DNA of 64,000 bases from assembly GCF_012396365.1 (NCBI RefSeq), contig NZ_JAAXPG010000021.1:62001-126000 (forward strand). Direction: 5' to 3'. The notes beneath the pieces were generated by a model. It saw only the letters and a program-made list of their open reading frames with translations. It did not search any database and had not been told where the DNA came from. How positions within the stretch are numbered: the stretch's first letter is position 1; each line of letters opens with the position of its first letter. The DNA comes from Nocardiopsis alborubida (GTDB lineage: Bacteria > Actinomycetota > Actinomycetes > Streptosporangiales > Streptosporangiaceae). This document shows, one piece after another, positions 4,888 to 36,629 of this stretch. A program made the translations under genes and the position numbers.

Positions 4888-7464
4888 ATGACCAACGGCT
4901 CTCATTCCTTCCGCATGCCCGACAAGCCCTCGCTGGACGGTATCGAGGCGAAGTGGGTCGACGTATGGGATGAGTCCGGCGTCTACCACTTCGACCGCAC
5001 GGCCGACCGCGCGGACGTCTACTCCATCGACACCCCGCCGCCCACGGTGTCGGGCTCGCTGCACATCGGCCACGTGTTCTCCTACACGCACACCGACACC
5101 GTCGCGCGCTTCCAGCGCATGAACGGCAAGGCCGTCTTCTACCCCATGGGCTGGGACGACAACGGCCTGCCCACCGAGCGGCGCGTCCAGAACTACTACG
5201 GCGTGCGCTGCGACCCGTCGATCCCCTACGACCCGGACTTCCAGCCGCCCGCCAAGCCCGACCCCAAGCGGCAGGTCCCCGTCTCGCGGCGCAACTTCAT
5301 CGAGCTGTGCGACCGGCTCACCGCCGAGGACGAGAAGGTCTTCGAGTCCATCTGGCGCCGCCTCGGGCTGAGCGTCGACTGGCGCCACACCTACGCCACC
5401 ATCGACGACAACTCCCGCTCCGCCGCCCAGCGAGCCTTCCTGCGCAACCTGGCCCGCGGCGAGGCCTACATGTCCGAGGCCCCCACCCTGTGGGACGTCA
5501 CGTTCCGCACCGCGGTCGCCCAGGCCGAGCTGGAGGACCGCGAGCGCCCCAGCGCCTACCACAAGGTGGCCTTCCACAAGCCCGACGGCGCCCCGGTCCA
5601 CATCGAGACCACCCGCCCCGAGCTGCTGGCCGCCTGCGTCGCCCTGGTCGCCCACCCCGACGACGAGCGCTACCAGGACCTGTTCGGCACCACCGTGCGC
5701 ACCCCGGTCTTCGGCGTCGAGGTCCCCGTGCGGGCCCACCGCCTCGCCGACCCCGAGAAGGGGTCCGGCATCGCCATGATCTGCACCTTCGGCGACACCA
5801 CCGACGTCACCTGGTGGCGCGAGCTCCAGCTGGAGACCCGGCCCATCATCGGCTGGGACGGCCGTGTCATGGCCGACCCGCCCAAGGGGCTGGAGAGCGG
5901 CGCGGCCCGCGAGGCCTACGACACGCTCGTGGGCGCCACCGTCCACACCGCGCGCGAGCGCACCGTCGCCCTGCTGCGCGAGAGCGGCGACCTGGTCGGC
6001 GAGCCCGCGCCCATCACCCACCCGGTGAAGTTCTACGAGAAGGGCGACAAGCCCCTGGAGATCGTCACCACCCGCCAGTGGTACATCCGCAACGGCGGGC
6101 GGGACGAGGACCTGCGCCAGCAGCTCCTGCGGCGCGGACGCGAGCTCACCTGGCACCCCGAGCACATGCGCGCCCGCTACGAGAACTGGGTCGAGGGCCT
6201 CAACGGCGACTGGCTGATCAGCCGCCAGCGCTTCTTCGGCGTGCCCTTCCCCGTCTGGTATCCGCTGGACGCCGACGGCAACCCGCGCTACGACGAGCCC
6301 ATCGTCCCCGCCGAGGACCAGCTGCCCGTCGACCCCAGCTCGCAGGCGCCCGAGGGCTACACCGAGGACCAGCGCGGGCGTGCGGGCGGGTTCATGGGCG
6401 ACCCCGACGTCATGGACACCTGGGCGACCTCCTCGCTGTCCCCGCAGATCGCCTCCGGCTGGGAGCGCGACCCGGACCTGTACCGGCGGGTGTTCCCCAT
6501 GGACTACCGGCCCCAGGGCCAGGACATCATCCGCACCTGGCTGTTCTCCACCGTGGTCCGGGCCCACTTCGAGAACGGCACCCTGCCCTGGAGCACCACC
6601 GGCATCTCCGGCTGGATCCTGGACCCCGACCGCAAGAAGATGTCCAAGTCCAAGGGCAACGTCGTCACCCCGCTGGCGCTGCTGGAGAAGTACAGCTCCG
6701 ACGCGGTCCGGTACTGGGCCGCCAGCGGTCGCCTGGGCACCGACACCGCCATGGACGAGGGCCAGATGAAGGTCGGCCGCAGGCTGTCCATCAAGATCCT
6801 CAACGCCAGCAAGTTCGTCATGTCCGTGGCCGGTGAGGGCGCCGCCGCCGACCCCGCCCACGTGGTCCAGCCGCTGGACCGGGCGATGCTGGCCGCCCTG
6901 GCCGACGTCGTGGAGGACGCCACCGCCGCCTTCCGCGCCTACGACCACACCCGGGCCCTGGAGCGCACCGAGCGCTTCTTCTGGGACTTCTGCGACGACT
7001 ACCTGGAGCTGGTCAAGACCCGCGCCTACGACACCGAGTCCGCCGAGGGCGCCTCCGCCCGCGCAGCGCTGCTGATCGCCCTGGGTGCCCTGCACAGGCT
7101 CTTCGCCCCCTTCGTGCCCTTCGTGGCCGAGGAGGTCTGGAGCTGGTGGCAGGAGGGTTCGGTCCACGCCCAGCGCTGGCCCGACACCGCGGAGTACCGC
7201 GCGGCCGCGGACGACGGCGACCCCGCCGTCCTGGCCGCCACCGCCGAGGTGCTGCGTGCCGTGCGCAAGGCCAAGTCCGAGGCCAAGCTGTCCATGAGGG
7301 CCGAGGTCGAGCACGTCAGCGTCTCGGGCAAGCGGGTCGACGCCGCCCGCGCCGCCCGCGCAGACATCGCCGCCGCGGGCCGTGCCGCCGGGATCGACTT
7401 CCGCACCACCGACGACGCCGAGCTCACCGTCGAGGTGACCCTGCCCGAGACCCCCGCGGAGTAG
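4888..7464 (+). CDS. valS: Valyl-tRNA synthetase
   Basis: Charges tRNA-Val with valine. Class I synthetase of 858 residues with HIGH at 59-62 and KMSKS at 584-588; the editing (CP1) insert lies between them and the anticodon-binding domain at about 670-810. It is of the shorter type without the long C-terminal coiled coil, typical of many actinobacteria, with WDDNGLPTERRVQNYYG in the catalytic core. Start ATG 4888 gives MTNGSHSFRMPDKPSLDG; a much longer in-frame extension upstream overlaps the DUF4235 gene and is not believed. No T-box-like leader was recognised upstream. Confidence 0.95.
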   Translation: MTNGSHSFRMPDKPSLDGIEAKWVDVWDESGVYHFDRTADRADVYSIDTPPPTVSGSLHIGHVFSYTHTDTVARFQRMNGKAVFYPMGWDDNGLPTERRVQNYYGVRCDPSIPYDPDFQPPAKPDPKRQVPVSRRNFIELCDRLTAEDEKVFESIWRRLGLSVDWRHTYATIDDNSRSAAQRAFLRNLARGEAYMSEAPTLWDVTFRTAVAQAELEDRERPSAYHKVAFHKPDGAPVHIETTRPELLAACVALVAHPDDERYQDLFGTTVRTPVFGVEVPVRAHRLADPEKGSGIAMICTFGDTTDVTWWRELQLETRPIIGWDGRVMADPPKGLESGAAREAYDTLVGATVHTARERTVALLRESGDLVGEPAPITHPVKFYEKGDKPLEIVTTRQWYIRNGGRDEDLRQQLLRRGRELTWHPEHMRARYENWVEGLNGDWLISRQRFFGVPFPVWYPLDADGNPRYDEPIVPAEDQLPVDPSSQAPEGYTEDQRGRAGGFMGDPDVMDTWATSSLSPQIASGWERDPDLYRRVFPMDYRPQGQDIIRTWLFSTVVRAHFENGTLPWSTTGISGWILDPDRKKMSKSKGNVVTPLALLEKYSSDAVRYWAASGRLGTDTAMDEGQMKVGRRLSIKILNASKFVMSVAGEGAAADPAHVVQPLDRAMLAALADVVEDATAAFRAYDHTRALERTERFFWDFCDDYLELVKTRAYDTESAEGASARAALLIALGALHRLFAPFVPFVAEEVWSWWQEGSVHAQRWPDTAEYRAAADDGDPAVLAATAEVLRAVRKAKSEAKLSMRAEVEHVSVSGKRVDAARAARADIAAAGRAAGIDFRTTDDAELTVEVTLPETPAE

Positions 7465-22418: not shown

Positions 22419-25208
<2,790 letters not shown>

Positions 25209-26042: not shown

Positions 26043-26294
26043 TCAGTGGCTGCCGCTGCTGACGCTGGAGTGGTAGGCCCCGTGGGGGCCGGCGTGGGAC
26101 CAGGAGTGGTAGTACCAGGAGTGGCCGTGGCCGGAGCCGGACTTGACCACGTAGCTGTACGCCCCGTCGGAACCGGCCCCCGACCAGCTGGACGAGTAGT
26201 AGCTGTCCGCCGAGGCCAGGGCCGGGGCCCCGAGCGCCAGGACGGGTGCGGCGACGACGGTGAACGCGAATCGGCGCAGGGTCTTCCTCTGCAT
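26043..26294 (-). CDS. Small secreted protein, left paralogue
   Basis: 83 residues. Signal peptide MQRKTLRRFAFTVVAAPVLA... with cleavage after ALASA; the mature part (about 52 residues) is rich in Ser, Gly, Tyr, His and Trp in imperfect repeats (SWSGAGSDGAYSY, SWSHAGPHGAYHS). No Cys. Exactly the same length as the gene at 36031-36282, with shared leader, motif GAGS(D/N)GA and terminator. Function unknown; extracellular. The start is supported by GAAGGGAA upstream, conserved in both. Confidence 0.75.
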   Translation of the reverse strand: MQRKTLRRFAFTVVAAPVLALGAPALASADSYYSSSWSGAGSDGAYSYVVKSGSGHGHSWYYHSWSHAGPHGAYHSSVSSGSH

Positions 26295-26662
26295 GGTGGC
26301 GGGTTCCCTTCGAAGCTCGGGTTGGGGAGCGGTCGTGCGGACGCGGTCGCGTCCAGTCGTGCTGTCGGCGCATCGCTGGACGCGTGGCACCGCCCGACTT
26401 TGTCCTCTTTGTCACTTTTGTCTTCCTCGTTCATCCTGACGCCGGAGCAACCCAAGAGGGAACACCAGGGACCTGTGTAAACACCAAAATCGAGGTGCCG
26501 CGCCCCCGGGTGCGCGCGAGGCACGGCCGGGGGGCCGGGGCGGCGGCGGCATCCGCGTGGTGGCCCGGGTTCCGCACGGCAGGACGTTCGGGAGCGCTCG
26601 CGAGTGCGCCGGAAGGAGGGCCCGCGGCGGTGCCGAAGGGTAAATCCCGGACATCTCGCCCC
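26295..26662. other. Upstream region of left secreted-protein gene
   Basis: Holds the minus-strand promoter. The blocks CTCGATTTTGG and GGTGTTCCC recur upstream of the right paralogue (36420-36470), so they are likely promoter elements. No gene is supported. Confidence 0.45.
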
Positions 26663-26667
26663 CACTG
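26663..26667. repeat. Target-site duplication, left copy (CACTG)
   Basis: CACTG directly before the left inverted repeat; the same five bases follow the right inverted repeat at 35896-35900. Five-base duplications are the rule for Tn3-family insertion. Confidence 0.9.
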
Positions 26668-26721
26668 GGGGTGTCGGTAAGGAGCGCGTCACCAAGTGCC
26701 AAGTAACCCGCGAGTAACTTA
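26668..26721 (+). repeat. Left terminal inverted repeat of transposon
   Basis: 54 bp beginning GGGGTGTCGGTAAGGAGCG and ending GAGTAACTTA; differs from the right end only at positions 20 and 28. Confidence 0.93.
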
Positions 26722-26745
26722 GTCGACGCTTGCGGCGGATGCCCG

Positions 26746-26850
26746 TACTTCTGGAAATCAGCGTTCCCGGAAGTAGCCTGAGGACATGATTTCTGGAAAC
26801 ACACCTCCTGTCGGAGGACAGCCCCCGGTTTCCACTTCTGGAAACACACG
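26746..26850 (+). other. Probable TnpI recombination site
   Basis: An inverted pair TACTTCTGGAA (26746-26756) / TTCCCGGAAGTA (26764-26775) around a 7-nt core, followed by two direct copies of the arm motif, TTTCTGGAAACACACC (26790-26805) and CTTCTGGAAACACACG (26835-26850). This matches the layout of the Tn4430 internal recombination site: core palindrome plus two accessory direct repeats. The last two copies lie inside the recombinase gene's first codons. Confidence 0.7.
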
Positions 26851-27832
26851 CACCGGTCGGCCGCGCCGAACCCTCGACCTGCCCGACGACCTGGCGGATG
26901 AACACCGTGCCTTCGGCGAGAAGCTGGCCGCCTCCACCGATTTGGGGACGGCCACCCGCGACAAGTACCGGCGCAACGCCGCCCACTTCCTGGCCTGGCT
27001 CGCCCAGGCGCGCGAGGCCGGCGCCCTGGACGGCGACCCGCTGTGCGATGCGGCCGCGCGGGACTGGGCGGTGCGCGACTACCGCCGCACGTTGAAGAAC
27101 ACCCGCACCGCCCGGGGAACCCACCTGTCGGCGGCCACCATCAACAACCGCCTCGCCGCCATCGACGCCTTCTTCGCCCTGCGCGGCTCGGGACGGCCCG
27201 ACGTGGTCCGCGAGCACCTGGCCCGCCCCAGCGCTCCACGCGCGCTCGAGGCCCGCGCCAAGCTGAGGTTCCTGCGCACCGTGGCCCGCGACGCCTCCGC
27301 CCGGGACCGGGTGATCTGCCACCTGGCCTACTACACGGGGTTGCGCATCGCCGAGATCGTCGCCCTGGACGCGGCCGACATCCGCCTGTCCGCGCGCCGG
27401 GGCAGCGTGCGGGTGCGCGGCAAGGGACGGTTGGGCGGCAAGGACCGCACCGTCCCGCTGCACGCCGAGGCCCGCGCCTCCCTCGAACTCCTCCTGGACG
27501 AGCTCGGCCGCCCTGCTGCCGGTCCGCTGGTGCGCAACCGCGACGGCCAGGCGCTGTCGACGCGGGCGGCGAACGCGGTGGTGTGCGAGTTGGGGTCAGC
27601 GGCCGGAATCGGACCGGGCGACGACGGGGAGGCGTTCGGCCCACACGTGCTACGGCACACCTTCGGCACCGACCTGGTGCGCGGCTGCGGCGACCTGGCG
27701 AAGGAGCCGGTGGACCTGGTGACCGTGGCCGAGTTGATGGGGCACGCCGACATCAACACCACCCGCCGCTACGCTCTGCCCACCGAGGCCGACAAGGCCG
27801 CCGCCCTGGAGGTGCTCACCGTCGACCGGTGA
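26786..27832 (+). CDS. Tyrosine recombinase, TnpI-like cointegrate resolvase
   Basis: 348 residues, phage-integrase family. SAM-like N-terminal core-binding domain (about 40-145) and catalytic domain with Arg187 (TGLRIAE), Lys in RGKGRLGGKD, His287-x2-Arg290 (HVLRHTFG), His320 (LMGHADI) and nucleophile Tyr329 (RRYAL). By context it resolves Tn3 cointegrates at the site lying over its 5' end, as TnpI does in Tn4430. ATG 26786 has TGAGGA just upstream; residues 2-8 and 18-24 are encoded by the binding repeats (ISGNTPP, TSGNTRT). Confidence 0.85.
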   Translation: MISGNTPPVGGQPPVSTSGNTRTGRPRRTLDLPDDLADEHRAFGEKLAASTDLGTATRDKYRRNAAHFLAWLAQAREAGALDGDPLCDAAARDWAVRDYRRTLKNTRTARGTHLSAATINNRLAAIDAFFALRGSGRPDVVREHLARPSAPRALEARAKLRFLRTVARDASARDRVICHLAYYTGLRIAEIVALDAADIRLSARRGSVRVRGKGRLGGKDRTVPLHAEARASLELLLDELGRPAAGPLVRNRDGQALSTRAANAVVCELGSAAGIGPGDDGEAFGPHVLRHTFGTDLVRGCGDLAKEPVDLVTVAELMGHADINTTRRYALPTEADKAAALEVLTVDR

Positions 27833-27866
27833 GGCCCGCAGCGCCGCACGATGCCTCATGCGTGCC

Positions 27867-28001
27867 CTAGGACAGCAGGAAGGCGCCGACGACCACCAGG
27901 GTGGCGGCGCTGATGGCCACGACGAGGACCAGCGCGATCGTGCCGGTGCGCTCTTCTTCGGGGGTGGGGTCCTGGTCGCTCGGGGTGCAGCAGCCGCTCA
28001 T
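27867..28001 (-). CDS. 44-residue membrane peptide with N-terminal Cys pair
   Basis: Starts MSGCCTPSDQDPTPEEERTG, followed by one hydrophobic helix (residues 21-44). ATG 28001 overlaps the stop of the upstream methyltransferase gene (ATGA), which argues strongly that it is translated. The CC pair could bind a soft metal; the P-type ATPase in the same element also begins with a Cys cluster. No family recognised. Confidence 0.6.
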   Translation of the reverse strand: MSGCCTPSDQDPTPEEERTGTIALVLVVAISAATLVVVGAFLLS

Positions 28002-28627
28002 CGGGGTCCCTTCGTGGTGGTGTGGTCGGTGAGGCGGCCGATCCCGGGCAGGAAACGGCCGGTGCGCGCGGCGTAACCGGAGTAGGCGGCGCCGTGGATG
28101 CGCCGCAGGTAGGGTTCCTCGATCGCCCTGACCTGCATTTGAACGCCGATGAGGACGGCGGCTGCGCCGAGTACGGCGATGGGGTTGGGGACCGTCAGGG
28201 CCAGGCCCAGCGACATCGCGGTGTAGGCGGTGTAGATGGGGTTGCGGGCGATGCGGAACGGGCCGCCGGTCACCAGGTGCGGGCGTTCGGTCTCATCGGG
28301 TGTGGTTCGCCAGGCCTGGCCCATGGCGAGCTGGGTGGCGAAGGTCCCCGCCACGCCCAGGGCGGCCAGGGCCGCGCCGGCGGTGCGCAGGGCGGGCTGG
28401 TCGAGGCCGGGCAGCGGCGTGAGGCCGGCCAGTTCGGCGATGGGTGCGGCGACGCCGGTGGCCAGGCTGCCCAGTGCGAGCGGGAGTCGGGCGGCCCAGG
28501 CCAGCGGGCTGGCCGGGCGTCGGATCCCGGTGTCGGTGCCGTGGCGTCGTTGGAGTTGCGTCTTGGTCGCGGTCAGGACGATGAAGACGCCGTAGAGCAC
28601 CAGTGCGGTGATGGCCATCGTGCTCAC
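27998..28627 (-). CDS. Isoprenylcysteine carboxyl methyltransferase (ICMT)-like membrane protein
   Basis: 209 residues with about five membrane helices and the ICMT/PEMT C-terminal motif region: HLVTGGPFRIARNPIYTAY (SAM-binding) and EEPYLRRIHGAAYSGYAARTGRFLPG. Bacterial members methylate unknown small molecules or lipids. GTG 28627 overlaps the upstream methyltransferase stop (GTGA). Transposon cargo; its link to metal resistance is by context only. Confidence 0.8.
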   Translation of the reverse strand: MSTMAITALVLYGVFIVLTATKTQLQRRHGTDTGIRRPASPLAWAARLPLALGSLATGVAAPIAELAGLTPLPGLDQPALRTAGAALAALGVAGTFATQLAMGQAWRTTPDETERPHLVTGGPFRIARNPIYTAYTAMSLGLALTVPNPIAVLGAAAVLIGVQMQVRAIEEPYLRRIHGAAYSGYAARTGRFLPGIGRLTDHTTTKGPR

Positions 28628-29256
28628 CTGCCCTTTTGGGTGCGGGTGGCGACGCCGAGGAGGTAGTCGCTACCGATGCGGGTGCGCCAGTTCTCGCCGA
28701 TGTGCAGGCCGTGGCGGGGCAGCTCGGCGAGGAACTCGCCCGCGCTGAACCGGTCGGCGGTGGGGTGGTCGAACAGGGCCTTGTAGGTGGGGCGGGCCAG
28801 GGCGGTGGCGGTGACCTCGTCGAAGAAGAACCGGCCACCCGGTGTGAGAACGCGGGCGACCTCGGCCAGGGCCTCTCTCCAGTTCGGGATGTGGTGGATG
28901 ATCGCGAAGTCGAACACCGCGTCGTAGGAGGCGTCCTTTCCGCCGTCGATGGGGCCGAAGGCGGCGGCCAGGTCGGTGGCCGAGCCGCGCGCGAGGTAGA
29001 CGCGCTCGCCGTGGCGCTGAAGGCGGCGCCGTGCTTTGGCCAGCATTTTGGGGTCCAGGTCCACGGCGTCCACGGACGCGGCGCCGAAGGTGTCCAGGAT
29101 GAGTTTGGTGCCGTATCCGGGTCCGCATCCCAGCTCGGCGGTGTGGGCGCCTGGCGTGCGCCCGCCCAGTTCGACCAGCACTGCGGCCTCGTAGTGCTGC
29201 AACCAGCGCCGGGGCGGTGAGTCGATCAGCGCCGACTCCACGCGGTTCATGAGCAT
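28624..29256 (-). CDS. Class I SAM-dependent methyltransferase
   Basis: 210 residues, soluble Rossmann-fold methyltransferase: motif I AELGCGPGYGTKL, acidic residue in VDLDPKMLAKARRR, motif IV region VFDFAIIHHIPNW, post-I VLTPGGRFFFDEV. The start ATG 29256 has AAAGG at 7-nt spacing; ATG 29250 is an alternative. First gene of the leftward three-gene cargo block, divergent from the metal sensor, so probably repressed by it. Substrate unknown. Confidence 0.85.
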   Translation of the reverse strand: MLMNRVESALIDSPPRRWLQHYEAAVLVELGGRTPGAHTAELGCGPGYGTKLILDTFGAASVDAVDLDPKMLAKARRRLQRHGERVYLARGSATDLAAAFGPIDGGKDASYDAVFDFAIIHHIPNWREALAEVARVLTPGGRFFFDEVTATALARPTYKALFDHPTADRFSAGEFLAELPRHGLHIGENWRTRIGSDYLLGVATRTQKGR

Positions 29257-29263
29257 GCCCACA

Positions 29264-29301
29264 CCTTTCAACATCGCCAACATGGGATATGATCGCTATA
29301 T
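29264..29301. promoter_or_regulatory. Divergent promoter/operator at the metal-sensor gene
   Basis: AT-rich segment with imperfect dyad ATATGATCGCTATAT (29286-29300) containing a good -10, TATGAT (29287-29292). Initiation about 8-10 nt later falls at the ATG 29300, implying a leaderless sensor mRNA. Likely binding site of the ArsR-type sensor controlling both directions. Confidence 0.5.
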
Positions 29302-29683
29302 GACGATGAATAGCACGGATGAGTGCGTAGCCACAACTACGGGCTTGGGCGCTGCCGAGGCGCTCTTCCACAGCCTCTCCGACGGCACCCGGCTGGCCAT
29401 CGTGCGCCGCCTGGCCCAAGGTGAGGCGCGGGTGTCCGACCTGGTGGAACAGTTGGGACTGGCCCAGTCCACGATCTCCAAGCACGTGGCATGCCTGCGC
29501 GACTGCAACCTGGTCGACGGGCGTCCCGAGGGACGGCAGGTGTTCTACTCCCTGACCCGCCCCGAGCTGCTGGACCTGCTGGCCTCGGCCGAGATCCTGC
29601 TGGCCGCGACCGGCAGCGCGGTCGCACTGTGCCCCAACTACGGAACCGACAGCACGACGATGACGGAGGTGCGCGGTGAGTGA
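29300..29683 (+). CDS. ArsR-family metal-sensing repressor, CmtR-like
   Basis: 127 residues, winged helix with LGLAQSTISKHVACLRDCNLV. Cys65 and Cys69 in the recognition helix (CLRDC) plus Cys111 near the C-terminus (ALCPNYG) reproduce the Cd(II)/Pb(II) site of Mycobacterium CmtR (CLRGC plus a C-terminal Cys). It should leave DNA when it binds cadmium or lead. Start ATG 29300 rather than 29306 because it fits the promoter. It overlaps the ATPase gene by 8 bp. Confidence 0.88.
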   Translation: MTMNSTDECVATTTGLGAAEALFHSLSDGTRLAIVRRLAQGEARVSDLVEQLGLAQSTISKHVACLRDCNLVDGRPEGRQVFYSLTRPELLDLLASAEILLAATGSAVALCPNYGTDSTTMTEVRGE

Positions 29684-31649
29684 CGCGTGCGGATGCGGTG
29701 GCGACGAGCCCCGCGCAGGGGAAGCAGCCGAAGAGCACGAACCGGAGGCGTTGTGGCAGGTGAGCGAGATCCGCTTCGCCGCCGTCGCCGCGGCGCTGCT
29801 GCTGGCCGGGTACGGCGCGGGCTGGGTCGGCGCCGGCGACCTGGTGGGGTTGGTTCTCAAGGCCGCCGCGCTGGCGGTCGCGGGGTGGACGTTCGTCCCC
29901 TCCACCGTGCGCCGCCTGGCTAAGGGCAGGATCGGCGTGGGCACGCTGATGACCATCGCCGCCGTTGGCGCCGTGCTGTTGGGTGAGGTGGGCGAGGCCG
30001 CGATGCTGGCGGTGCTCTACACCATCGCCGAAGGGCTGGAGGAGTACTCCGTGGCCCGCACCCGCCGCGGCCTACGCGCCCTGCTGGACCTGGTCCCCGA
30101 CCAGGCCAGAGTGCTGCGCGACGGAACCGAGCGCACCGTCGACCCGGCCGAGCTGGTCGTGGGCGACACGCTGGTGGTGCGCCCCGGGGAGCGCCTGGCC
30201 ACCGACGGCCGTATCGCCTCCGGGCACACCAGCCTGGACACCTCGGCCATCACCGGCGAGTCCGTCCCCGTCGAGGCCGGACCCGGGAACGAGGTGTTCG
30301 CCGGCTCCATCAACGGCACCGGCGTCCTGGAGGTGACCGTCACCTCCACCGCGGCCGACAACTCCCTGGCCCGCATCGTCTCCATCGTGGAGGCCGAGCA
30401 GTCCCGCAAGGGCGCCGGACAGCGCCTGGCCGACAAGATCGCCAAACCGCTGGTGCCCGGGGTGATGATCGCCGCCGCCCTCATCGCCGCCCTCGGGGCG
30501 CTCTTCGGTGACCCGCTGATGTGGATCGAACGCGCCCTGGTCGTGCTGGTGGCCGCCTCCCCCTGCGCGCTGGCCATCTCCGTCCCGGTCACCGTGGTCG
30601 CCGCGATCGGCGCCGCCTCCAAGCACGGCACCCTGGTCAAGGGCGGCGCCGCCCTCGAAGCCATGGGCCGGGTCAAGACCGTCGCGTTGGACAAGACCGG
30701 CACCCTGACCCGCAACCGCCCGGCCGTCATCGAAACCGCCCCGGCGCCCGGCCACACCGCAGAGCAGGTACTGGCGGTGGCCGCCGCGCTGGAGGAGCGC
30801 AGCGAACACCCCCTCGCCCGCGCCATCCTGGCCGCCGCCCCCGCACCCCAGCGGGCCGAGCACGTGGAGGCGGTCACCGGAGCCGGGCTCACCGGAACCC
30901 TGAACGGCCGCAGTGTCCGGTTGGGCCGACCGGGCTGGATCGAGGCCGACCCACTGGCCGGGGACGTGAAGCGGATGCAGCACGCCGGGGCCACCGCCGT
31001 CCTGGTCGAGGACGACGGCGCGCTGCTGGGCGCCATCGCGGTGCGCGACGAGCTGCGCCCCGAGGCGGGCGAGGTCGTGGCCTCCCTGCGCGGTGCGGGC
31101 TACCGGGTGGTGATGCTCACCGGCGACAACCACGCCACCGCCACCACCCTGGCCGCCCAGGCGGGCATCGATCCGGGTGACGTGCACGCCGAGCTGCGCC
31201 CCGAGGACAAGTCCCGCATCGTCGGCCAGCTACGCGAACACGGCCCGGTGGCGATGGTCGGCGACGGCGTCAACGACGCACCCGCCCTGGCCACCGCCGA
31301 CCTCGGGATCGCCATGGGCGCCATGGGCACCGACGTGGCCATCGAGACCGCCGACGTCGCTTTGATGGGCGAGGACCTGCGCCACCTGCCCCAGGTCCTG
31401 GGCCACGCCCGCCGCTCTCGGGTCATCATGTGGCAGAGCGTGGGACTGTCGCTGGCCATCATCATCGGCCTGATGCCCCTGGCCCTGTTCGGCATCCTGG
31501 GCCTGGCCGCGGTCGTGCTGGTGCACGAGGTGGCCGAGGTCGTGGTCATCGGCAACGGCATCCGCGCCGGACGCACCCGCCGCCTGGGACTGGCTCCCGG
31601 TGGTCCCGCCACCGCCGCACCACGCGAGCGTGCGGGGGCGACGGCGTGA
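29676..31649 (+). CDS. Heavy-metal translocating P1B-type ATPase
   Basis: Metal efflux pump, 657 residues. A short N-terminal Cys cluster (MSDACGCGG) replaces a full metal-binding domain. Membrane motif Ser295-Pro296-Cys297 in AASPCALAIS instead of the CPC usual for cadmium pumps; phosphorylation Asp339 in DKTGT; TGES loop, GDGVND hinge; HE in the last helices (LVHEVAEVVV). SPC is typical of the P1B-4 group (Co, Fe, sometimes Cd), so specificity is open although the sensor is Cd/Pb-type. GTG 29676 follows GGAGG. Confidence 0.9.
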   Translation: MSDACGCGGDEPRAGEAAEEHEPEALWQVSEIRFAAVAAALLLAGYGAGWVGAGDLVGLVLKAAALAVAGWTFVPSTVRRLAKGRIGVGTLMTIAAVGAVLLGEVGEAAMLAVLYTIAEGLEEYSVARTRRGLRALLDLVPDQARVLRDGTERTVDPAELVVGDTLVVRPGERLATDGRIASGHTSLDTSAITGESVPVEAGPGNEVFAGSINGTGVLEVTVTSTAADNSLARIVSIVEAEQSRKGAGQRLADKIAKPLVPGVMIAAALIAALGALFGDPLMWIERALVVLVAASPCALAISVPVTVVAAIGAASKHGTLVKGGAALEAMGRVKTVALDKTGTLTRNRPAVIETAPAPGHTAEQVLAVAAALEERSEHPLARAILAAAPAPQRAEHVEAVTGAGLTGTLNGRSVRLGRPGWIEADPLAGDVKRMQHAGATAVLVEDDGALLGAIAVRDELRPEAGEVVASLRGAGYRVVMLTGDNHATATTLAAQAGIDPGDVHAELRPEDKSRIVGQLREHGPVAMVGDGVNDAPALATADLGIAMGAMGTDVAIETADVALMGEDLRHLPQVLGHARRSRVIMWQSVGLSLAIIIGLMPLALFGILGLAAVVLVHEVAEVVVIGNGIRAGRTRRLGLAPGGPATAAPRERAGATA

Positions 31650-32161
31650 GGCCGACGACACCGACTGCGGCCGGCACGCTCCCCCGTTGGGGCGTGCTGG
31701 CCGCCGCCCTCACACTCACAGCCGCCGACCTGGCCCTGAAGGCCCTAGCCGAAGACCGGCTGACCGGCGGGCCCGGACCACAACTCCTGGGGCTGCTGGA
31801 GTTGCGCCTGACCTACAACCCCGGCGTCGCTTTCAGCCTGGGCGCGAGCATGCCCACATGGGTCATCGTGGCCCTCACCGGGCTCATCACCGCCGCCGTG
31901 GCCGCCTACGCCTGGCGCACCGCCCCTACCACCCCGCTCGCGGGCCGCGTCGGTCTGGCCGGGATGTTGGGCGGTGCGCTGGCCAACCTCATCGATCGCG
32001 GCCTGGACGGTGTGGTCACCGACTACCTGCACAGCGGCTGGTGGCCCACCTTCAACCTCGCCGACGCCTTCATCGTCGCAGGGGCGGTACTGCTCGTGCT
32101 CACGTCCGCCCGCCAGGGCGCACCGGCACCGCCCGGTAAGGACTCCGACCCGTGGACCTGA
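31646..32161 (+). CDS. lspA: Signal peptidase II (lipoprotein signal peptidase), transposon copy
   Basis: Membrane aspartyl protease cleaving prolipoproteins. 171 residues, four helices, catalytic Asp117 (NLIDRG) and Asp140 (FNLADAF), with the conserved YNPGVAFSLG. GTG 31646 overlaps the ATPase stop. Accessory lspA genes beside metal ATPases are known from lead and cadmium operons such as pbr; it probably assists metal resistance rather than serving as the housekeeping copy. Confidence 0.9.
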   Translation: MRPTTPTAAGTLPRWGVLAAALTLTAADLALKALAEDRLTGGPGPQLLGLLELRLTYNPGVAFSLGASMPTWVIVALTGLITAAVAAYAWRTAPTTPLAGRVGLAGMLGGALANLIDRGLDGVVTDYLHSGWWPTFNLADAFIVAGAVLLVLTSARQGAPAPPGKDSDPWT

Positions 32162-32742
32162 TCATCATCGCCCAGGCGGCCGGCCTGTTCGCCCTCACCA
32201 ACATCGACGACATCGTGGTGCTCGCGCTGTTCTTCGCCCAAGGCGCCGGGCACCGCGGGGCCACCGCCAAGATCGTGGCCGGGCAGTACCTGGGCTTCAT
32301 CGCGATCTTGGCCGCCGCGCTGGCCGCCACCTTCGGCGCGAGTTTCCTGCCCGAGGAGGTGCGCGCCTACTTCGGGCTGCTGCCGCTGCTGCTGGGCCTG
32401 CGCGCGGCCTGGAACCTGTGGCGCGGCGATGACGACGATGAGGCCCCCGACAGCGACAACGGCCCGGCCCTGCTCACCGTCGCCACCGTCACCTTCGCCA
32501 ACGGCGGCGACAACATCGGCGTTTACGTCCCCGTCTTCGTCACCGTCGGCTACGCCAGTCTGGCCGTCTACGCGACGGTCTTTCTGATCCTGGTCGGTGT
32601 GCTGTGCGCGGCCGGCAAGTTCCTGGCCACCCGCGCTCCCATCGCCCGCGCGCTCAGCCGCTGGGGTCACATCCTGCTGCCTCTGGTCCTCATTGTCCTG
32701 GGTGTGGTCATCCTCATCGAGGGCGGCGCCTTCGGACTGTAG
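32152..32742 (+). CDS. cadD: CadD-family cadmium resistance transporter
   Basis: 196 residues, about five to six membrane helices, starting MDLIIIAQAAGLFALTNIDDIVVLALFF; a second NGGDNIGVYVPVF motif gives the paired-Asp/Asn repeats of the CadD (Cad) family. An acidic loop GDDDDEAPDSDN may collect cations. GTG 32152 overlaps lspA by 10 bp. Last gene of the rightward resistance block. Confidence 0.88.
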   Translation: MDLIIIAQAAGLFALTNIDDIVVLALFFAQGAGHRGATAKIVAGQYLGFIAILAAALAATFGASFLPEEVRAYFGLLPLLLGLRAAWNLWRGDDDDEAPDSDNGPALLTVATVTFANGGDNIGVYVPVFVTVGYASLAVYATVFLILVGVLCAAGKFLATRAPIARALSRWGHILLPLVLIVLGVVILIEGGAFGL

Positions 32743-32787
32743 GCACACCCACCGGTTCCCGCACCCGGTCCGGACACCGTCTCGGTC

Positions 32788-35745
32788 TCATCCACCCAGG
32801 GCCAGGCGGTTGCCCATGTTCAGACGGATGTCGCCATAGGGGTTCATGTTCGAGGAGAACAGCGGGGTGAGCCCGCGCCGGTCCTCGGCCGTCAGCGTGT
32901 TCTCCCACTCGGGTTCGGCCAGCACCTGCTGGAGCATCAGCGTGTTCACATACACCAGGCACGCCTGGAGGATGTGCAGGGCGAGCATGGTCAACTCCTG
33001 CTCCTCGCGGCGGTTGGAGGACAGCTCCCCCGTCTTGCCGTAGAGGATCTCGCCGTGGATGCCGTGGGAGTTCTCCACCACGTTCAGCCCCGACCCCACC
33101 TCGTACTGCAAATCGCGATCGCGCAGGTAGCGCGCCGCAAACGCGGTCTTCTCGGCCCGGCCCACCTCCAGCATCGCCGCGTAGGTGGGGTGGGAGGCGG
33201 CCCGGGTGAAGCGGCGCAGGATCGCCTCGGTGGAGGCGGTGCCCAGCCGGATCGCGGTGGCGTACTTGATCATCTGGTCGTACTGCTGGGCGATCAGGTC
33301 CCAGCGGATCGGCCGGGTCATCGCAGGCCGCAACAGCGGGTAGGTTTCCAGGTCGCCGCGGTCGGGCTGGTAGAGCTTGACCCGGTTGATCTGCTTGATG
33401 CGCGGCAACAGCTTGAACCCCAGCAACCGCGTGATACCGAACCCGATCTCGGACTGGCCGTGGGAGTCGACGTAGTTGGCCTCCACGTTCATCGAGGTGC
33501 CGTGCCGCATCGCCCCCTCCACCATGGCGTGCACCTCCGAGGCCGAACACGACAGCAACTGGGAGTGCACGGCCATCGACCGCTCCTCGATGTGCCAGTA
33601 GATGAGCACACCCCGGCCCCCGTACCGCGAGTGCCACTCGGTGAACAGGTTCTGGTCGAACGCCTTCACATGCGTGGAGTCCGACCCCACCGCGGTCGAC
33701 CCCTGCCCCCAGAGCGCTTCGGAGCGGATGGCGAAGGTCGCGTTGGCGATCGCGCGGGCGGCGCCCCGGGCCCCCTCGATGGTGAAGTAGCGGCGCCGGA
33801 TGTAGCGCAGGTCGTCCTCGGAGTAGGCGTGCTCGCCCGCAGCCGCCCGACGCAGCCCGGTGTTGGTGCCATAGGCGTAGATCACCAGGATCAGCCGCTC
33901 CCACAGCTCCTCGGTGGTGATGGCCTCGCGGGTGCCGACCCCGGTGAAGGCCTCCAGCATCCCGGTGCGCAGCGCGGTCTCCTTGAGCATGTCCAGCAAA
34001 GGGACCACACCCCACTTGGCGCGCACCGCCTTCTTCAACCTGCGCAGGTTGCGCGGCTCAGCACGCGCCTCCAACGGCGTCAGGCTGATCGCCCCCGCCT
34101 TGCGCTCGGCGACCTCCACCCACCCCAGGCGGGGCAGCGCGTCGTTGAGGTGGGCCAGCTCGGTCACCATGTCGCCGCGCAGGCGCGCGATGAACTCATC
34201 CGGATCCAGGGGCTGGTTCAACTTCCGGTAGTTCTCCACGCGCTTGTCCGCGAAGTCGGCGGGCAGGTCCTCATCCGGATTGCGCCACCGGTCCGCGCCC
34301 ACCACCCAGATCTCCTTGCAGCGCAACTGCTCGCGCAGGCTCTGGAACACCCCGCACTCATAGACGGTGCGCAGCACCCGCACCCGGCCGCGCTGGTCGG
34401 TGCGGTGCAGCAGCTCGCGCAGCTCGAAGGGGATCACCCCGTCGACGGGGACGTGCTCACCGGCGTCGTAGTAGGGGCGGTTGTTGGCCACCTCCCGGTA
34501 GCGGCAGATCAGCTCCAGGGCCTTGACCAGCGGGCGGTGCACGTCGTTGGAGGAGTGGAACTCCAGCACGTCCAGCAGTTGGAGCAGCCCCACGCGGTAG
34601 TGGTTGGAGTAGGAGGACTTGAACACCCGCTGCTTGTGCTGGCGGTAGCTGGTGCCCTTGGACCGGAACTCGGCCAGCAGGTCCTTCAGCGTCTGCTCAC
34701 CGCCGGCGGCCGGGTAGACCACCTCGCGCACCAGCGACTCCGGCGAGCCCACGGACGCCTCGGCGATCCGGAAGAGGATGTCCTCCTTGCCCGAGACCCG
34801 CTTGAGGTCGCGAACGAACTCGGCGGTCACGACCTTCTCCGCGCGGGCGTTGATCTTGTGCACGGTCGAGATCACCAGATCGACCAGGGTGTCGGTGATC
34901 TCCCGCTCACGTGAGAACAGCAGCGCTCCCAGCAGGCACACCTTGATCTGGTGCGGGTGGCCGCGCAGGTGCGAGGGAGCCTCGGCCGCGGCCCGGTCCC
35001 GCCACGCGGCCACCATCGTGGCCGGGAGGCGCGCGAAGGCCCGGTGCGGCACCCCGACAGCGCGCACCGCTTCCAGCTTCGTCTTCTCCGCGATCAGCGT
35101 CTTGAGGCTGACATTGCCCGGGGCGTCCTTGATCCGCGCATACACCTCGGGGCCCTCCCCTGCCGCCGGCGCCTCGTCGGGGTCGTCGCTGGCCTGACCG
35201 ATCAGCGTGAGCATCCGCTCCACGACCTCGGCGGGCACCTCGCCCACCGCGCGGGCCATCATCTGATCCTCGGCCTGGCTCAGCGCCGAGCGCACGATCC
35301 GCTCGATGCGGGTCTTCTCCGGCGGCTCGATCAGCTCCTCTTTGCAGTGCTCCAGCAGGCGCTGGCGTACCCGGTCGGGGTTGCGCTCCTGGTCGCACAC
35401 GTTCTCGGCCAACCACAGCGTGACCTTCTCGGCGTCGGGAACCGAGCACTCGCCGAAGCCGGTGAACTCGCGGATCTCGGTGCGGTTCCGCTTGGCCGAA
35501 CGCCCCTGCCAGTCGTAGAAGGCGATCTCGGAAGGCTCGACCTTGACCTGCCTGGCCACGTGGACGACGGCGTTGTCGGGCACCTCACCGCGGCCGCGCG
35601 GGAACCGGCCGCGCCAGAGCAGGAAACGCAGGGTCAGCGCGAACCCGAGCCGGGTCGCCCCGGACTTGTTCCGCAGCAGCCTCAACTCGTCGGCGGTGAG
35701 GGTGAAGGCGTCGAGGAGTTCGTCCAGGTCCAGATCACGCGCCAC
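32788..35745 (-). CDS. tnpA: Tn3-family transposase
   Basis: 985 residues, full length for the family. N-terminal DUF4158 domain, then a C-terminal DDE domain with Asp in SDSTHVKAF, Asp in YVDSHGQSEIGF and Glu in HGIHGEILYGK. Start GTG 35745, about 100 bp inside the right inverted repeat. It carries out replicative transposition, and the cointegrate would be resolved by the tyrosine recombinase at the other end. No frameshift or internal stop is seen. Confidence 0.93.
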   Translation of the reverse strand: MARDLDLDELLDAFTLTADELRLLRNKSGATRLGFALTLRFLLWRGRFPRGRGEVPDNAVVHVARQVKVEPSEIAFYDWQGRSAKRNRTEIREFTGFGECSVPDAEKVTLWLAENVCDQERNPDRVRQRLLEHCKEELIEPPEKTRIERIVRSALSQAEDQMMARAVGEVPAEVVERMLTLIGQASDDPDEAPAAGEGPEVYARIKDAPGNVSLKTLIAEKTKLEAVRAVGVPHRAFARLPATMVAAWRDRAAAEAPSHLRGHPHQIKVCLLGALLFSREREITDTLVDLVISTVHKINARAEKVVTAEFVRDLKRVSGKEDILFRIAEASVGSPESLVREVVYPAAGGEQTLKDLLAEFRSKGTSYRQHKQRVFKSSYSNHYRVGLLQLLDVLEFHSSNDVHRPLVKALELICRYREVANNRPYYDAGEHVPVDGVIPFELRELLHRTDQRGRVRVLRTVYECGVFQSLREQLRCKEIWVVGADRWRNPDEDLPADFADKRVENYRKLNQPLDPDEFIARLRGDMVTELAHLNDALPRLGWVEVAERKAGAISLTPLEARAEPRNLRRLKKAVRAKWGVVPLLDMLKETALRTGMLEAFTGVGTREAITTEELWERLILVIYAYGTNTGLRRAAAGEHAYSEDDLRYIRRRYFTIEGARGAARAIANATFAIRSEALWGQGSTAVGSDSTHVKAFDQNLFTEWHSRYGGRGVLIYWHIEERSMAVHSQLLSCSASEVHAMVEGAMRHGTSMNVEANYVDSHGQSEIGFGITRLLGFKLLPRIKQINRVKLYQPDRGDLETYPLLRPAMTRPIRWDLIAQQYDQMIKYATAIRLGTASTEAILRRFTRAASHPTYAAMLEVGRAEKTAFAARYLRDRDLQYEVGSGLNVVENSHGIHGEILYGKTGELSSNRREEQELTMLALHILQACLVYVNTLMLQQVLAEPEWENTLTAEDRRGLTPLFSSNMNPYGDIRLNMGNRLALGG

Positions 35746-35841
35746 CCGACCGTCCCCTGCCCGCTCGTGTCCCTGGCCGAGCGGTACGCCCGGCTATCCA
35801 CGATCTTCCGGGGCGCTGGGGCTGGTTGTCCGGAGAACCCG

Positions 35842-35895
35842 TAAGTTACTCGCGGGTTACTTGGCACCTGGTGACACGCTCCTTACCGACACCCC
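35842..35895 (-). repeat. Right terminal inverted repeat of transposon
   Basis: Reverse complement of 26668-26721 at 52 of 54 positions; outermost bases CCCC, followed by the duplicated CACTG (35896-35900). Confidence 0.93.
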
Positions 35896-35950
35896 CACTG
35901 CGAACCCACGGAACCCCGCGTGTGCGGGGCGGACGGCCCCGGGTGGCGTC

Positions 35951-36014
35951 GCGCCCGCTCCGCGCCCCGGACACGCGAACTCCCGGCGCCGCCGTGCGGC
36001 ACCGGGAGCCGTCC
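35951..36014 (-). repeat. 64-bp direct repeat with terminator, right copy
   Basis: Same 64 bp as 25964-26027; hairpin at 35980-36008. It follows the stop of the right secreted-protein gene. Confidence 0.85.
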
Positions 36015-36030
36015 TCGGGAGTCGGCGACC

Positions 36031-36282
36031 CTAGCCGGCGCCGCTCTCCGTCTCGGAGGAGTAGGCGCCGCCCTCACCGGCGACGCTGAAGGACTCCTCG
36101 AACCAGGACTTGCCGTCACCGGCGAAGGCCTCGAGCTCGTGGTGGAAAGCACCGTTGGAGCCGGCGCCACTCGTCTCCGTCTCGTAGTACGCGTCAGCCG
36201 AGGCCAGGGCCGGGGCCCCGAAGGCCAGAGCGGGTGCGGCGACGGCCGTGATCGCGATGCGGCGCAGGGTCTTCTTCTGCAT
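36031..36282 (-). CDS. Small secreted protein, right paralogue
   Basis: 83 residues, the same length as 26043-26294. Signal peptide MQKKTLRRIAITAVAAPALA with ALASA cleavage site; the mature part is acidic (Glu-rich) where the paralogue is His/Tyr-rich, but keeps SGAGSNGAF and the GEGGAYSS repeat. The two thus diverged in charge while keeping the frame. Before the transposon landed they would have been about 0.5 kb apart. Function unknown. Confidence 0.75.
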   Translation of the reverse strand: MQKKTLRRIAITAVAAPALAFGAPALASADAYYETETSGAGSNGAFHHELEAFAGDGKSWFEESFSVAGEGGAYSSETESGAG

Positions 36283-36629
36283 GACAGTGGGTTTCCCTTC
36301 GTGGCTTGGTGCGGGGACTCCGACGCCGTGCGGGCGGTCGCAGGTCGACGCTGTCCGCGAGGTGCGAAAGCGCGTGGAACCACCGGGCGTTCTCCCCGCT
36401 TCCCAGCCTGCGGCCGGGCAGGCCAAGGGGGAACACCAGAAAGCTGACTAAAATCCAAAATCGAGACATTCAGCAAAAAAGCGTGTGCGGAGCGTGCGGA
36501 AGCCGACGGGTGCGGCGGCCGGATCCCGGGCGGGGCGGGCTCTCCCGGGCCTCCCGCCCCGGCGGCGTCCGGGGCCGCGGACGGGTCCCACCCCGGCTGA
36601 TGTCCGTAAACCTCCGCTATGCTCACCGC
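36283..36629. other. Divergent promoter region
   Basis: Between the right secreted-protein gene and the following rightward gene. It contains the conserved CTCGATTTTGG and GGTGTTCCC blocks on the minus strand. No gene is supported. Confidence 0.45.

Follow-up and report, generated by a model that had tools for sequence, protein, structure and literature searches.

In the available sections of a 2020 survey, the tyrosine resolvase TnpI is listed for only three of 190 elements, the Bacillus transposons Tn4430, Tn5401 and TnBth4 (PMC7157771), and the internal site of Tn4430 and Tn5401 is described there as a core (IR1-IR2) with two direct repeats, DR1 and DR2. A tyrosine-type resolvase is also described, in the accessible part of the report by Sota et al. 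2018 (PMC6403206), for the experimentally mobile transposon Tn4556 of Streptomyces fradiae, where it lies at the end opposite the transposase gene tnpA. Here we analyse a stretch of 64,000 nucleotides from Nocardiopsis alborubida (GCF_012396365.1, contig NZ_JAAXPG010000021.1, positions 62,001 to 126,000; hereafter the window), which is part of contig C14 of a 7.16-Mb genome (G000) and contains an element of 9228 bp at 26668-35895. Judged from its sequence, this element is very probably an intact, recently moving Nocardiopsis transposon of the Tn3 family that combines a TnpI-like tyrosine resolvase with a metal-efflux cassette.

Ends, transposase and copies of the element

The element is bounded by 54-bp terminal inverted repeats (26668-26721, forward strand; 35842-35895, reverse strand) that agree at 52 of 54 positions, with two mismatches, and whose outermost sequence begins with GGGG (GGGGTGTCGG). 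Both are adjoined by a copy of the 5-bp target duplication CACTG (26663-26667 and 35896-35900), and the wider coordinates 26663-35900 count these two copies as well. Among the inverted repeats listed in the region 26400-36200, the end pair is the longest (59 nucleotides at 95% including the duplication) and the next reaches 41 nucleotides at 73%; because of this wide margin, we regard the pair as far beyond chance. An initial annotation had described these repeats, the duplication on both sides, and an uninterrupted tnpA, tyrosine recombinase and cargo; the ends agree with that description base for base, and all eight main genes are open.

Next to the right end, tnpA (32788-35745, reverse strand) encodes a transposase of 985 amino acids (aa) that scores 720 bits against NF033527 (cut-off 500) and is also over the cut-off of PF01526. 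The structure of Tn4430 TnpA (7qd8) aligns with it (E = 3.8e-46), and D689, D760 and E891 align with acidic residues of that structure, counterparts that we take to be the catalytic residues of TnpA. The element therefore has the marks of the Tn3 family: terminal repeats of at least 38 bp (here 54) starting with GGGG, a 5-bp target duplication and a large family DDE transposase of about 1000 aa. By analogy with replicative transposition in that family, TnpA would bind both long ends and link them to a target opened by a 5-bp staggered cut; copying of the element would leave a donor-target cointegrate.

Full-length copies were found in four of 40 genomes of the genus (the host's own included), namely those of N. 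alborubida, N. coralli (G006), N. salina (G023) and N. metallicus (G020), each with its own exact 5-bp duplication (CACTG, AATTC, AACCA and TACAT, respectively). Relative to the N. alborubida element, the N. coralli copy has 4 substitutions (99.96% identity), the N. salina copy has 7 substitutions and 3 gap columns including an N (99.89% identity), and the N. metallicus copy has 148 substitutions and 67 gap columns. The eight main genes are full length and stop-free in every copy, with one alignment gap in the N. salina tnpA, at the N. As a housekeeping gene of the hosts we used a 907-aa open reading frame (ORF; 22485-25208), which we take, from reading it without a family search, to encode aconitase; its identity to that of N. 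alborubida is 98% in the genomes G007 and G011, 93% in N. metallicus, 92% in N. coralli and 91% in N. salina. The insertions are thus recent and at different sites, and movement of the element within Nocardiopsis follows by inference. Recent insertion and mobility, as first annotated, gain support from four copies with four exact duplications in four genomes, and recency also from copy identities of 99.96% and 99.89% between hosts whose 907-aa ORFs are 92% and 91% identical. These four separate insertions document an actinomycete transposon that carries predicted metal resistance between species.

The check proposed with that annotation, an empty site joined at a single CACTG, was run on close relatives. 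In G007 the site is unoccupied, with a single CACCG in place of the two CACTG of the window. Its left flank can be aligned as far as the junction but its right flank for only 10 bases, 7 of them identical, after which a gap of about 60 bp follows, so this test is only fair. G011 yielded no clean empty site and was not informative. The N. coralli copy provides a cleaner single-copy junction: it splits a hydratase gene whose flanks, when joined at one AATTC, form a single open frame that runs across the junction and has a match to FAA_hydrolase (E = 1.4e-6), whereas with both AATTC copies the frame stops six residues past the junction. The N. metallicus copy sits in a Tn3 transposase gene, the halves of which match profile positions 1-153 and 156-389, and the N. 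salina copy adjoins the end of a MerB match, with a 37-aa piece on its other side that is too short for a match. A plasmid search with the whole element returned 157 records, none covering 80% of it, and the 20 of them listed share cargo; a phage collection gave only distant Tn3 transposases, among 10 of the 15 matches listed.

The recombinase and its putative resolution site

Just inside the left end, a forward-strand gene (26786-27832) encodes a TnpI-like tyrosine recombinase of 348 aa that is over the cut-off of PF00589 (Phage_integrase), which would give the transposon a resolvase of the class found in TnpI-type elements. Its nearest solved structure is XerD (1a0p, E = 2.5e-17), and its motifs at residues 184, 212, 287 and 318 align with those of XerD. 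Between the end and the gene lies a putative recombination core (26747-26774, forward strand) with 11-bp arms, ACTTCTGGAAA and TTCCCGGAAGT, around 6 bp. Two copies of an accessory repeat, TTCTGGAAACAC, follow on the same strand within the recombinase frame: DR1 (26791-26802), 42 bp from the core, and DR2 (26836-26847), 45 bp past DR1. An inverted core with two direct repeats beside the gene is the arrangement of TnpI-type systems. Here, however, the start codon is immediately 5' of DR1 and both repeats fall within the first 22 codons; since the start codon abuts DR1 and DR2 comes 15 codons later, the N terminus of the recombinase would, if this reading is true, be written by its own binding sites. 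The recombinase would resolve the cointegrate by crossover at the core, DR1 and DR2 would assist as accessory sites further on, and binding at the in-frame repeats would be expected to damp expression of the gene.

We compared this layout across 18 recombinase genes with readable starts, three of which are not intact (a stop after 102 codons in G024, 287 codons in N. flavescens and an in-frame TAA in G514). The set leaves out the near-identical copy in N. xinjiangensis (G039), the truncated, rearranged or unclear-start genes of G027, G572, G093, G283 and G437, and short fragments. In 14 of the 18 genes the strict motif is present at both +4 and +49 relative to the start codon, and in 15 a core arm stands at -36 to -39; the more distant genes have about 43-51% of residues in common with the element's recombinase. 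Every scanned locus of at least 9 kb had a single core and none had more, and on this basis we reject the reading that these recombinase relatives act as integrases for elements bounded by a pair of att sites; the exact core occurs once each in 2 of the 40 same-genus genomes.

Codon use in the repeats may indicate selection on their DNA. When six complete genes of the closer group were aligned at the protein level, pairwise comparison of synonymous codons gave identity in 90 of 90 cases within DR1 and DR2 and in 2944 of 4002 from codon 23 onward; because 138 of 10,000 random draws of six columns from the later part also reach full identity, this conservation by itself is modest evidence. The repeats also use codons that are rare in eight genes of the region (TCT, 1 of 153 serine codons; GGA, 23 of 341 glycine codons), and TCT together with GGA is found at both repeats in 8 of 8 closer recombinase genes.

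Three further observations concern the site. Among the near-identical copies of N. alborubida, N. coralli and N. salina, four of the eight substitution positions lie within 140 bp (26769-26908), the surroundings of the recombination site and the recombinase start, and one of them alters the right arm of the core in N. coralli and N. salina. At a locus of G024 (L068, near 7787), which has a broken gene, homology to the left end starts inside the core: the right arm is retained and another sequence stands in place of the left arm, an arrangement that an earlier crossover at the core might have produced. The in-frame repeats also occur in more distant recombinases at L173, L174, L178, L179 and similar loci, where no Tn3 transposase match lies nearby.

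Bipartite ends and proposed exchange of the recombinase module

Comparison across elements divides the left repeat into an outer part of 33 bp (26668-26700, forward strand) and an inner 20-bp imperfect palindrome, AAGTAACCCGCGAGTAACTT (26701-26720, forward strand), with the corresponding inner box of the right repeat at 35843-35862. The ends are bipartite in that three different outer sequences are found in front of the inner 20 bp. With one mismatch allowed, the box was found at 34 sites in 13 of the 40 same-genus genomes and at 0 in the reversed control, and in 5 of 394 genomes of the class, all of them Nocardiopsis. A scan for the exact box in a collection of species genomes gave 24 stretches, all from Nocardiopsis, Streptomonospora, Streptomyces or Streptosporangium; context was viewed for 10 loci, the rest coming from genomes already covered in the same-genus scan. 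Nearly all box sites viewed sit at Tn3-type ends, with one site of G038 (L091) having no clear outer repeat. We reject a role as a general host operator, given the count of 34 against 0, the matches among class genomes all being in this genus and the position of nearly all viewed sites at Tn3-type ends. Shorter forms of the box, CAAAGTAGC and CAAGTAACCCG, close other Tn3 ends, and we infer that the 20-bp form consists of a transposase box to which a mirrored half has been added.

The box is also present at each end of two intact relatives that have exact duplications: an element of N. potens (G474; 10,068 bp, GAGTT) and one in a genome of another genus (G505; 7,103 bp, AAGGC), which has other cargo and whose two boxes share one variant. 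In a TnpA tree, the element copies, N. potens and G505 form one clade (100/100), and elements of Nocardiopsis sp. JB363 (G036) and N. xinjiangensis group with Streptomyces NBC_00846 and NBC_01727 in a separate clade (98/97); the wider grouping around the element is weak, with 3 of 12 inner branches open. The JB363 and N. xinjiangensis transposases are 43-45% identical to that of the element, and the outer ends of those elements differ from its own; their recombinase regions nevertheless share 82-83% DNA identity with that of the element, and this homology begins at the inner 22 nucleotides of the end. Resolvases of relatives from both TnpA lineages match PF00239, the serine type, in 6 of 6 cases examined. 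The simplest reading is that both Nocardiopsis Tn3 lineages received the same tyrosine-recombinase module, which would provide a natural example of Tn3 lineages in which one resolvase has replaced another. Named Nocardiopsis strains hold intact copies, so that this can be tested directly.

A broader proposal, to which we give even chances, is that an actinomycete TnpI-like branch keeps half of its site within its own coding sequence, tying resolution to autoregulation. End box, site and gene would pass as one module among Tn3 lineages whose ends are unrelated, taking the place of serine resolvases, and the module would also persist in chromosomes with no transposase beside it.

Other arrangements of these ends were also seen. 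In JB363 and N. xinjiangensis, a third, inverted copy of the end directly follows the recombinase gene (L064, 5387-5441; L065, 12210-12262), which is thus placed between two ends. A second contig of N. metallicus holds an 878-bp mini-element (L036, 7117-7994) that has a pair of such ends and the initial portion of tnpA; it has no matching duplication, and its left end is that of the N. potens element. Contig C28 of the N. alborubida genome contains a decayed relative (L009, 5160-9091) with two related ends separated by about 3.9 kb, one of which is fused to the tip of tnpA; the flanking 5 bp are not identical.

Several points weigh against an intact, mobile transposon that carries its own TnpI-like resolution system. 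No Tn3 transposase match lies beside the more distant recombinase relatives at 9 of 12 loci (stretches of 16-20 kb), the gap of about 60 bp weakens the sharp form of the empty site in G007, and the likeness of the recombinase to TnpI of Tn4430 and Tn5401 is one of layout and family, not of direct protein comparison. The substitution shared by N. coralli and N. salina also makes the function of the site uncertain in those two copies, since it falls in the right arm of the core. The first of these points would suit a captured integrase or solitary recombinase, with cointegrates resolved by homologous recombination of the host, as would the position of PF01526 matches mostly elsewhere in those genomes and a best structural match to XerD rather than to a resolvase. 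We nevertheless hold this to be improbable: a Tn3 element of Alicyclobacillus has a core and two repeats spaced as here, with the recombinase directly 5' of tnpA, each locus has one core instead of two att sites, and the gene adjoins the element end, where relatives carry a serine resolvase. This match in geometry across phyla is the best evidence that the site of the element is a resolvase site.

A fixed relic whose copies owe their distribution solely to vertical descent or to recombination in the flanking DNA is hardly credible; most of the genomes are drafts and the N. salina copy contains an N and a small indel, but four unrelated insertion sites in different genes, four exact duplications and near-identical copies across diverged hosts speak against it. 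As for the inner box, we consider it unlikely, though worth weighing, that it serves the recombinase or another regulator and not end recognition by the transposase. The box is common to ends with unrelated outer 33 bp, and Tn5401 has a TnpI site near each end, according to the available sections of the survey (PMC7157771). It does not, however, contain the TTC(T/C)GGAA motif of the recombinase sites, and one half of the box (CAAAGTAGC or CAAGTAACC) also closes the Tn3 ends of elements with serine resolvases or with other genes. A tyrosine-recombinase site, first suggested by the homology of the JB363 and N. xinjiangensis elements starting at the box, is disfavoured on these two grounds. Eight box loci also have no such motif in the stretch viewed, a weak test because two of them belong to the N. 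potens element, which has its recombinase site further away, outside that stretch.

Predicted metal-resistance cargo and comparison with known systems

Between recombinase and tnpA, each of the cargo frames scores above the cut-off of a Pfam family in a Pfam profile search. Three genes lie on the reverse strand: one for a small membrane-type, CC-containing protein of 44 aa (27870-28001; MSGCC... with one hydrophobic stretch), one for a PEMT/ICMT-type membrane methyltransferase (27998-28627; PF04191) and one for a class I SAM methyltransferase-like protein (28624-29283; PF13649/PF08241). The 44-aa protein, too small for the ORF list and recognised by its conservation, travels with the cargo (81% identity in N. 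potens, 57% in a chromosomal cassette on contig C12 and 56% in G030) and is possibly a metal-binding membrane peptide. Four genes on the forward strand follow. The first encodes an ArsR/SmtB metalloregulator (29249-29683, exact start uncertain) with cysteines at 82, 86 and 128, which we call only CmtR-like because it is over the cut-off of the general model NF033788 and below that of the CmtR equivalog model NF047906 (57.8 bits against 150). The others encode a P1B-type heavy-metal ATPase of the cadmium family (29676-31649; TIGR01512, 517 bits against a cut-off of 313.5) with an SPC motif at residue 295, an LspA-like signal peptidase II (31646-32161; PF01252 over cut-off, TIGR00077 slightly below) and a CadD-like cadmium transporter (32152-32742; PF03596 over cut-off, TIGR00779 below). 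A second cassette elsewhere in the host genome is 91% identical over 3.5 kb, and the regulator-ATPase part has 85-91% relatives in six other genomes of the genus. The cargo is most likely a metal-efflux cassette with cadmium as the likeliest substrate, perhaps lead or zinc; the cadmium/lead specificity initially annotated is suggested by the combination of CmtR-like ArsR regulator, cadmium-family P1B ATPase, LspA and CadD. Outside the element, two related small secreted-type ORFs (26043-26390 and, on the reverse strand, 36031-36426), about 70% identical in DNA, flank it on either side, and neither had a Pfam match in the profile search.

As described in the accessible part of PMC13043812, the cmtR-pacL2-ctpG operon of Mycobacterium tuberculosis likewise places a CmtR-type regulator beside a cadmium-linked P1B ATPase. 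Compared by description, that ATPase has an APC motif in place of SPC, and the present cassette is transposon-borne and has no PacL-like gene between regulator and ATPase. For the transposon itself, plasmid Tn3 elements of Streptomyces, Nocardia and Pseudonocardia (L058, L062 and L063) have TnpA proteins 51-60% identical and a similar outer end (GGGGTG...GTCACCAG), but they encode a serine resolvase (PF00239) and do not have the complete inner palindrome. The Alicyclobacillus sp. SO9 element on plasmid p1 (NZ_CP066340.1, L193) encodes a recombinase 39% identical to that of the element, has perfect 53-bp inverted repeats and shows the core arm, DR1 and DR2 at the same spacing of 42 and 45 bp. 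It differs in its motif, TTC(T/C)AATAAT, in repeats that precede the annotated start, and in a DUF4158-type Tn3 transposase gene that follows the recombinase directly and appears in pieces.

In architecture, the closest described relative is Tn4556, to which we liken the element by description in the accessible part of its report (PMC6403206) and not by sequence (LC417441). Both come from an actinomycete host and have 5-bp duplications; in both, a Tn3-type TnpA lies at one end and a resolvase of the PF00589 (tyrosine) type reads inward from the other, and a putative res site, palindromic in sequence, separates this resolvase from its end. Tn4556 differs in its 38-bp ends (54 bp here), in its cargo of a methyltransferase and an isoprenyl diphosphate transferase, and in an annotated resolvase start downstream of the position expected from the layout of the element. 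Judged by its published coordinates, Tn4556 would have an additional, earlier start in the same frame near 6488 and, past the core, repeats spaced by 42 and 45 bp. No Tn4556-type element was among the best 20 of 2001 plasmid matches to a more distant recombinase, and open-licence literature on such elements in actinomycetes or Nocardiopsis, available mostly as titles and abstracts, included none describing this element or an in-frame recombinase site.

In resolution system, the closest described relatives are Tn4430 and Tn5401, which, in the survey sections available (PMC7157771), have a tyrosine resolvase and the same site components, and TnpA of Tn4430 is also homologous. In Tn4430, however, tnpI and tnpA are colinear and the site lies upstream of tnpI, whereas the element has its two genes convergent at opposite ends and DR1 and DR2 in frame; the cargo of Tn4430 and Tn5401 differs as well. 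Because of the in-frame repeats and the convergent genes, we class the element as TnpI-like and not as a member of the Tn4430 subgroup. As far as these partial sources go, a tyrosine-type resolvase opposite tnpA is already known from Tn4556 and the site inside the recombinase frame is the unusual part; a recombination site fused into its recombinase gene would point to TnpI-like resolution outside the three Bacillus elements listed in 2020.

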